Shown: piece by piece, positions 33,348 through 35,282 of the stretch
Position numbering within the stretch: the first letter of the stretch is position 1
Layout of the letters: each line of letters opens with the position of its first letter
Assembly (NCBI GenBank): GCA_009703275.1
Contig: WLGJ01000004.1
Span: 1-35,282, forward strand
Direction: 5' to 3'
Length of the DNA stretch: 35,282 bases
Origin: Actinomycetota bacterium
GTDB taxonomy: Bacteria; Actinomycetota; Acidimicrobiia; Acidimicrobiales; Acidimicrobilacustridaceae
The notes under the pieces: model-generated
Database searches by the model: none
Seen by the model: the letters and a program-made list of their open reading frames with translations, nothing else
Told to the model about the DNA's origin: nothing
Translations under genes and position numbers: made by a program

Positions 33348-33868
33348 CGCTTCACCGCAGTCGTCGGAGTGGTTGCCTTTGCAACTGTGGTTGGCGTCGT
33401 CTTCGGAGCAACCGTGGTTGCCGTGGCCTTCGGTGCGGCCTTCGGTGTCGGTGCCGGGGGCATTTCGGCCGCACGAGCGTCATCAGTCATCTTGGGTTGC
33501 AGGTAGACCGGCGTCGGCGACGGAATCATTCCAAGCTTCGTTGTGGCAGCTGTCGTGATGTTCTGCGGACTCTGTAATTGTGCAAGCTCGACACGGAGAA
33601 GCTCAGCGCGAGTTTCCGCTTCGGCAATGCGATTGTTGACGCGATCGATGTGCGCCTGTTCCGAAATGATCAAGGTTTGGGCGGCTGCGATTGCGAAAAG
33701 CACAACCACTACTCCGACGACACCAGCAATCAAACCGATACGGCGACGTTCAGGTGCAGTGCGATCGACAAGTCGAAGTCGCGATCGAAGCCCCTCACGA
33801 GTTGACTCCTGTGGTGCGCGAAGATTCGCGGCGCGACGACCTTCTGCGGCAACTCTTGCGCTGGTCAT
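33344..33868 (-). CDS. ftsL: FtsL-like septum formation initiator with Ala/Pro/Thr/Lys-rich C-terminal tail
   Basis: Basic N-terminus, one TM (IGLIAGVVGVVVVLFAIAAAQTLII), coiled coil (EQAHIDRVNNRIAEAETRAELLRVELAQLQSPQNITTAATTKLGMIPSPTPVYLQP); position rsmH-ftsL-ftsI. Confidence 0.85.
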   Translation of the reverse strand: MTSARVAAEGRRAANLRAPQESTREGLRSRLRLVDRTAPERRRIGLIAGVVGVVVVLFAIAAAQTLIISEQAHIDRVNNRIAEAETRAELLRVELAQLQSPQNITTAATTKLGMIPSPTPVYLQPKMTDDARAAEMPPAPTPKAAPKATATTVAPKTTPTTVAKATTPTTAVKR

Positions 33869-34806
33869 GACCGTTCTGCGATTCGAAGACGGGCGCTTTC
33901 AGCACGAGGGTTGCTCTCACGTTCGGCTGCACCTGGTGTGGTTCCGCCGCGACGGACAAGCCGAACCGTCGACGTGGCACCACAAACGCAGGGAAGGTTC
34001 GTGGGGCAGGTGCAACCGCCGGACTCGGCATCACGCATGACCTGCTTGACGATGCGATCTTCGCCCGAGTGGTAGGACAAAACCACCAGACGGCCAGCAG
34101 GATTCAGAGAGTCGATCGCAGCTTCAAGCGCAACGGGAAGTACGCCGAGTTCGTTATTCACTTCAATGCGAATCGCCTGAAATGTTCGTTTGGCCGGATG
34201 CCCGCCTGTACGGCGCGCAGGGGCAGGAATCGCGTCGCGAGTGATCTCTGCAAGTTGTGTCGTGGTCTCAACTGGTCGAGCAGCGATGATCGCTCGGGCG
34301 ATACGTCCAGCGAAGCGCTCATCACCAAACTCACGAAGAACACGGGCAAGAGACTTTTCGTCGTACTCATTAACGACTGTCATCGCACTGAGCGCACGAG
34401 ACGGATCCATTCGCATGTCGAGAGGCGCATCGAAGCGGTAGCTAAAGCCGCGCTCCGCTCGGTCGAACTGCGGAGAGCTCACACCAAGGTCGAAGAGCGC
34501 ACCAACAATTGGCTGACCGGCGAGTTCCGCATCGACGACCGTCGAAAACGAGTCGAAACGGGCCTGCACGGTGCGAGCACGATCGCCAAAGGGCGCAAGG
34601 CGTTCACGAGCAACTGCAAGTGCATCGGGGTCCTGGTCGATACCAAGTACCGAAAGATGCGGGTAGGCCTCGAGAAGAGCAGTTGTATGGCCAGCGCCAC
34701 CGAGGGTTGCGTCGATAACCCAACCAGCCGGGACTGACTCGAAGGCCGCCACGATCTCGTCGAGCATCACCGGGCGGTGGTCGAACGATTCGTGGGCTGC
34801 GGCCAT
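33865..34806 (-). CDS. rsmH: 16S rRNA (cytosine(1402)-N(4))-methyltransferase RsmH (MraW)
   Basis: HRPVMLDEIVAAFESVPAGWVIDATLGGAGHTTALLE, FDLGVSSPQFDRAERGFSYRFDAPLDMRMD, FQAIRIEVNNELG, VLSYHSGEDRIVK. ATG 34804-34806 with GAGAGG SD 8 nt upstream; the frame is open to 35031. Confidence 0.97.
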   Translation of the reverse strand: MAAAHESFDHRPVMLDEIVAAFESVPAGWVIDATLGGAGHTTALLEAYPHLSVLGIDQDPDALAVARERLAPFGDRARTVQARFDSFSTVVDAELAGQPIVGALFDLGVSSPQFDRAERGFSYRFDAPLDMRMDPSRALSAMTVVNEYDEKSLARVLREFGDERFAGRIARAIIAARPVETTTQLAEITRDAIPAPARRTGGHPAKRTFQAIRIEVNNELGVLPVALEAAIDSLNPAGRLVVLSYHSGEDRIVKQVMRDAESGGCTCPTNLPCVCGATSTVRLVRRGGTTPGAAERESNPRAESARLRIAERS

Positions 34807-34814
34807 GACAGATA

Positions 34815-34988
34815 CCTCTCGCTGCTGAGCCAGTCGGCAGAGCCGGTACCGGTCCTCAGCAGTCCCTCGGAACACCGGCGCCCGCCGGGATTTCTCCCCG
34901 GTCGGGCTCGATGGGAAGCGGGCGGAGTAGGGGCCTTCCATCGTGTGTTCCGAGAGACTGCTGAAAATCGGGCGACCGGCTCGGTCGC
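34815..34988 (-). ncRNA. Candidate structured 5'UTR RNA of rsmH (three-way junction plus upstream hairpin; possible mraW-motif-like cis element)
   Basis: P1 34856-34875/34945-34964 (20 bp, one G.U); P2 34909-34918/34935-34943 (9 bp, one bulge); P3 34880-34889/34897-34907 (10 bp, one bulge); P0 34972-34978/34982-34988 (7 bp perfect). Noncoding gap between mraZ stop and rsmH start. Confidence 0.7.
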
Positions 34989-35039
34989 AGGAGTGGTCCT
35001 TTCGTTGGTGGGTCAGGGACAAAGGGGACATGACACGGA

Positions 35040-35282
35040 CTAGAGCCCCAAAGACGTAACGGCTTGGGTGAGGCTGTCGTCGGCGAGTGATGCTTGGTCG
35101 TTCCAGCGACCTGCGTTCCAGATCTCGATGCGACCGAAGGCGCCAATGACGACGGCTTCTTTGTCGAGCGAGGCGAAATCGCGCAAGCGCTGGGGAATGG
35201 TGATGCGGCCTTGAGAATCGGGTCGGACTTCGTGGGCGTTGGCGGCGAAGGCGCGGAGCGATTCCTGGCTGGTTTCACCCGA
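35040..35282 (-). CDS. mraZ: Transcriptional regulator MraZ, C-terminal part (5' end outside window)
   Basis: Minus strand from the window edge: SGETSQESLRAFAANAHEVRPDSQGRITIPQRLRDFASLDKEAVVIGAFGRIEIWNAGRWNDQASLADDSLTQAVTSLGL then TAG; second SpoVT/AbrB-like repeat of MraZ (D-x-Q-G-R-I-x-I-P). Not in the ORF track because no start is in the window. Confidence 0.93.
   Translation of the reverse strand, partial: SGETSQESLRAFAANAHEVRPDSQGRITIPQRLRDFASLDKEAVVIGAFGRIEIWNAGRWNDQASLADDSLTQAVTSLGL

Follow-up and report, generated by a model that had tools for sequence, protein, structure and literature searches.

The gap between mraZ and rsmH in the window, the whole 35,282-nt stretch of DNA analysed here, carries a structured RNA element that is, with virtual certainty on the evidence of homologous sequences, a member of a real RNA family maintained by selection. 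This is a genuine family without counterpart in Rfam 15, and its kind is that of the cis-regulatory leader RNAs. The element very probably acts in cis on rsmH. No earlier description of it was found in a limited literature search.

Fold, covariation and distribution of the mraZ-rsmH intergenic RNA

The element consists of an outer stem (P1) and, in the window, two inner hairpins (P2 and P3). The features of the region are as follows.

33868..34806 (-): rsmH (mraW), encoding the 16S rRNA m4C1402 methyltransferase; likeliest start ATG 34806-34804
34854..34856 (-): ancestral rsmH start site (putative); AUG or GUG in many relatives, AGG in the window
34848..34972 (-): whole RNA element, mraZ-rsmH intergenic; match of covariance models R1/R2
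34945..34971 (-): P1 5' strand; core 34964-34945, extension to 34971 weaker
34909..34943 (-): P2 hairpin; strands 34943-34935 and 34918-34909, one bulged C
34917..34928 (-): P2 loop ACUCCGCCCGCU; CCGCCCG at 34925-34919 is identical to 16S 1399-1405, C34922 corresponding to C1402
34880..34907 (-): P3 hairpin; loop GAGAAAU; missing in short-form relatives
34849..34875 (-): P1 3' strand; core 34875-34856; conserved purine run GAGGG at 34868-34864, a G-run in relatives
35040..35282 (-): 3' part of mraZ, continuing beyond the window edge

A three-way junction had been proposed at 34856-34964 from the sequence alone, and the strings and coordinates given for its pairings are all exact. P1 runs 7 nt further outward than had been noted (to 34971/34849), which gives the model match at 34972-34848. 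The junction linkers of the window element are A, A and GCCG. RNAfold returned the three-way junction on the minus strand as both the minimum free energy (MFE) and the centroid structure, with an MFE of -69.6 kcal/mol, whereas shuffled sequences averaged -41.3 (z = -7.34; 0/200 shuffles). Any inverted repeat folds on its antisense strand too, and the antisense strand of the element gave a weaker fold (z -5.2). The preference for the rsmH-sense strand, also proposed from the sequence alone, was borne out by the homologues, in which 235 G-U pairs stand against 59 A-C mismatches, indicating that the rsmH-sense strand is the structured strand. The element is present as a single copy in its own genome, which rules out a mobile or repeated element.

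Starting leaders for the comparison were reached via the RsmH proteins of the genus and of named genomes. The first seeds were chosen by their loop letters, and later matches came from whole-structure searches. In the building of model R1 alone, seven of the seed sequences had a bulged C removed to ease their alignment; alignment A5, model R2 and all A5 counts use unmodified sequences. Covariation, suggested earlier as a check on the fold, was found: in A5 (62 homologues), which was fitted to the structure so that pair counts on it lean towards the structure, 42 of the 45 base pairs have double (compensatory) changes, paired cells make up 92.4%, and covariation scores 0.557, compared to 0.201 after shuffling and no more than 0.104 when partners are slid. 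A structure-blind MAFFT alignment of 17 leaders had compensatory changes in 20 of 36 pairs, and 12 of the 26 pairs of P1 had them already among 13 seeds. Among sequences of the genus and its closest relatives, the element has a pairwise identity of 90.5% (0.968 for P2). The flanks are less conserved than the element in the same genus set, at 79% for mraZ, 69% for rsmH and 62% and 55% for the two gaps.

Of 247 genomes from the class Acidimicrobiia, 166 gave a match with the R1 covariance model, and R2, built from 62 diverse matches, detected the element in 210 of the 247 and in 107 of 124 genera; the E-values of the covariance models are rough. In a 298-genome draw across the phylum, all 15 matches fell within Acidimicrobiia, and the ~270 genomes of other Actinomycetota classes gave none. 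Eighteen genomes had first been scored as element-free. Three of these (L223, L226 and L227) carry a divergent copy, and the remaining genomes of the 18 have no recognisable copy. In several of these remaining genomes, among them L214, L216, L217 and L218, mraZ nearly abuts rsmH, and these four class members are apparent losses. The titles of two records look wrong: L032 (CAMCTW010000018.1), titled Bifidobacterium breve, encodes an RsmH 85% identical to that of the window, and L042 (JAGWYK010000004.1), titled Acidobacteria bacterium, encodes one 71% identical to it.

Long and short forms and the rsmH start codon

The element occurs in a long form with P1, P2 and P3, as in the window, and in a short form of 90-101 nt with P1 and P2 (L157-L159, L162, L164, L165, L167, L170, L172, L174, L177-L182, L184-L189 and L233-L239), in many copies of which a conserved GCCAG linker takes the place of P3. 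The core of the P2 loop, UCCGCCC, is 97-100% conserved in 62 sequences; by column, UCC is present in 62/62, G in 60/62, CCC in 60-62/62 and the following G in 57/62. The P3 loop of the long forms keeps GAGAxA, and five purine positions of the P1 3' strand are kept in 61-62 of the 62 sequences. The low-GC loci (family f33; L233-L239) come from ~1-Mb genomes of 30-31% GC whose RsmH is only 32-36% identical to that of the window. They have the short form, in which the loop reads ACUCCGCCCA and P1 contains the rsmH AUG. Retention of a GC-rich loop at 30-31% GC is strong evidence for selection on the loop letters.

Two other resemblances to 16S rRNA were rejected. The 8/10 identity of the P3 loop to the 690 loop is equalled at several other rRNA places, and a copy of that loop is further weakened as an explanation by P3 being dispensable in the short form. 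The 5-7 nt match of the short-form linker GUGCCAG to the 515 region is expected by chance.

The gene rsmH lies downstream of the element in 62 of 62 loci, and mraZ lies upstream in 61 of 62. These counts make the cis-regulatory part of the sequence-only reading very probable, while its extension to control of the whole dcw operon stays conjectural; the evidence points to rsmH itself, rather than the whole dcw operon, as the regulatory target. By strict column, 25 of the 62 sequences have an in-frame rsmH start codon in the P1 3' strand, where it follows the purine run at a distance of ~7 nt. Of the 22 short forms, at least 19 have both the start codon and the preceding G-run paired within P1, as do 10 of the 40 long forms and f33. 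The predicted unpaired fraction of the P1 3' strand is 0.09, and it rises to 0.34 with the P1 5' strand removed. The other 30 of the 40 long forms, the window included, have no in-frame start inside P1, yet P1 is conserved in them.

In the window, the likeliest start of rsmH, the ATG at 34806-34804, is conserved in all close relatives. The start inside P1 has apparently been lost in this lineage, with AGG at the putative ancestral site, and 42 nt now separate the element from the apparent start of rsmH. For the Shine-Dalgarno (SD) sequence of the window rsmH, predicted exposure is independent of P1 (0.27 against 0.30 in the comparison with and without the P1 5' strand). On these predictions, start hiding is widespread in Acidimicrobiia but is not how the window copy would work.

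The window also contains CUCAGCAG and CGAGAGG before the rsmH start (34829-34814), which are repeats or complements of parts of P1 and might compete with it. A switch between P1 and this SD-proximal repeat (~34829-34814) was rejected, because the repeats are not kept in relatives and removal of the P1 5' strand leaves the predicted SD exposure unchanged. In four other loci (L018, L019, L021 and L190), the AUG at the ancestral site lies outside the rsmH frame and would open a small overlapping ORF, a possible coupling or decoy start.

Proposed mechanism and alternative explanations

We propose that the element is a class-wide cis-regulatory RNA of Acidimicrobiia in the 5' leader of rsmH, in which P1 would be the switch and the P2 loop the reading head for a trans-acting factor. 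In many relatives the closed P1 would hide the rsmH initiation region. RsmH would be the most economical ligand, binding or methylating a loop that would copy the CCGCCCG around C1402, and an excess of free RsmH would stabilise P1 and thereby lower RsmH synthesis. Since the start codon has apparently been lost from P1 in the lineage of the window, the closed stem there would have to act indirectly, through spacing, ribosome access or RNA stability. As a whole, an rsmH translational operator, possibly with feedback by RsmH, is the best explanation, and we give it about an even chance of being correct. Judging from sequence, action at translation initiation is probable.

RsmH methylates N4 of C1402 in 16S rRNA (PMC5053481). 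The context of C1402 is ACACCGCCCGUC, and the loop ACUCCGCCCGCU has CCGCCCG in common with it. Four 16S-23S stretches from the class each hold a single CCGCCCG, and it is centred on C1402. Its absence upstream of rsmH in the non-Acidimicrobiia loci tested counts against the reading. The match was noticed after the fact, and an identity of this length spanning C1402 has a chance probability of 0.2-0.4% with random letters and 3-4% with a shuffled C-rich loop. The f33 loop has CCGCCCA, only 6 nt identical to the 16S site. A search for pairing of the P2 loop with rRNA found no conserved complementary place in four operons. The E. coli enzyme acts on 30S subunits, not on free 16S rRNA (PMC5053481), and the human METTL15 shows no sequence specificity in its RNA binding (PMC10828496). 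The likeness of the loop to the C1402 site is suggestive, a lead rather than a result. That RsmH is the ligand throughout the class, recognising and perhaps methylating a copy of the C1402 site on its own leader, is tentative, and we lean against it. The loop gives a testable hypothesis, in which synthesis of a near-universal rRNA-modifying enzyme would be matched to its substrate.

The leader could instead respond to another protein or to a small molecule, as a riboswitch would, with the P2 loop, P3 loop and junction as the binding site and P1 as the expression platform. The position of the conserved letters, in loops and linkers (UCCGCCC, GAGAxA in P3 and the short-form GCCAG) on a covarying scaffold, is what such a leader would be expected to have. 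However, P3 is dispensable, which leaves one conserved loop and a short linker, small for a metabolite, and no known riboswitch family matches. We consider another ligand rather doubtful.

Among the alternatives without a ligand, the strongest is sensing of the state of the ribosome: a stem-locked rsmH start would need C1402-methylated ribosomes, and RsmH would in this way tune its own synthesis. In B. subtilis cmpA and isp mRNAs, stems over the ribosome-binding site (RBS) or start have been shown experimentally to make translation dependent on MraW (RsmH) (PMC13317604), and the Acidimicrobiia P1 spans the G-run and the rsmH start in many species. However, this leaves the near-invariant P2 loop unexplained, and many long forms have their start outside P1. 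P1 also greatly exceeds the B. subtilis stems in strength, and when the cmpA stem was artificially strengthened, translation was blocked completely even in the wild type (PMC13317604). Ribosome-state sensing is an unlikely account of the family.

Processing by RNase III is less probable still. In all homologues P1 forms an extended duplex almost free of interruptions, and a cut in its 20-27 bp would separate mraZ from rsmH mRNA and set their stability. Duplex length alone, however, would not require a conserved G-run, and neither the invariant P2 loop nor the rsmH start codon inside P1 would be explained.

The sequence-only reading had also raised the mraW RNA motif (RF01746), as the identity of the element or as a range extension of that family. 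Both RNAs occupy the same place upstream of rsmH and have a C-rich apical loop (ACUUCCCC in the motif, ACUCCGCCC in the element). However, cmscan gave no RF01746 match in the window (E<=5), in any of 21 related genomes, or in any Acidimicrobiia locus tested, six further loci included. With mraW membership set at a covariance-model score of at least 50 bits, three positive-control loci (L062, L067 and L068) scored 72-74 bits. Conversely, R2 scores mraW RNAs at 12-15 bits, which is chance level, and the motif is a single stem as opposed to a junction. Membership of RF01746 is thus very improbable. Among the 4227 models of Rfam 15, no family matches the element; three weak matches in the window were to eukaryotic models, far below threshold, and were discarded. 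An N-terminal extension of RsmH starting at 35031 or 34941, whose reading frame is uninterrupted in the window and in close relatives, is effectively excluded as the cause of the conservation: the distance from loop to rsmH falls in all three frames among homologues (25/25/9), base changes follow the pairing, and conservation of the element exceeds that of the coding regions.

Comparison with known systems

Like the element, the mraW RNA motif is a structured RNA in the mraZ-rsmH gap of Actinomycetota, and its function is unknown (PMC5640933). In Corynebacterium, a transcription start at the predicted mraW element and its 5' leader have been observed (PMC3890552, PMC4046766). The motif forms one long hairpin with the apical loop ACUUCCCC, whereas the element forms a junction or P1 and P2 with the loop ACUCCGCCC. 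The motif also belongs to a different bacterial class, and the rsmH start is not inside its stem in the three loci examined. In L062, L067 and L068, the mraW RNA loop ACUUCCCCG is loosely like ACUCCGCCCG of the element and ACACCGCCCG of 16S rRNA, which may be chance. Across different actinobacterial classes, the mraZ-rsmH gap contains two or more structured RNAs with no detectable relationship to each other, which suggests that RNA-level control of rsmH has been selected repeatedly.

Leaders that mimic rRNA, of ribosomal-protein and other genes, combine an rRNA-like loop with a stem able to hide the initiation region. A review on such autoregulatory leaders is cited in PMC11109978. The element resembles them in its position, in the 5' leader of a gene whose product acts on the rRNA site that the P2 loop may mimic. 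It differs from them in that the protein is an rRNA methyltransferase and the candidate rRNA match is only 6-7 nt.

UpsM of R. sphaeroides, compared here by description only, shares with the element RNA-level control of the dcw cluster, but it is an extended 5' leader and sRNA ahead of that cluster in an alphaproteobacterium (PMC5089854). The MraW-dependent stem-loops of B. subtilis cmpA and isp concern other genes and have short stems with no conserved loop reported; like the element, they place a stem over the RBS or start and have a link to RsmH and C1402 (PMC13317604).
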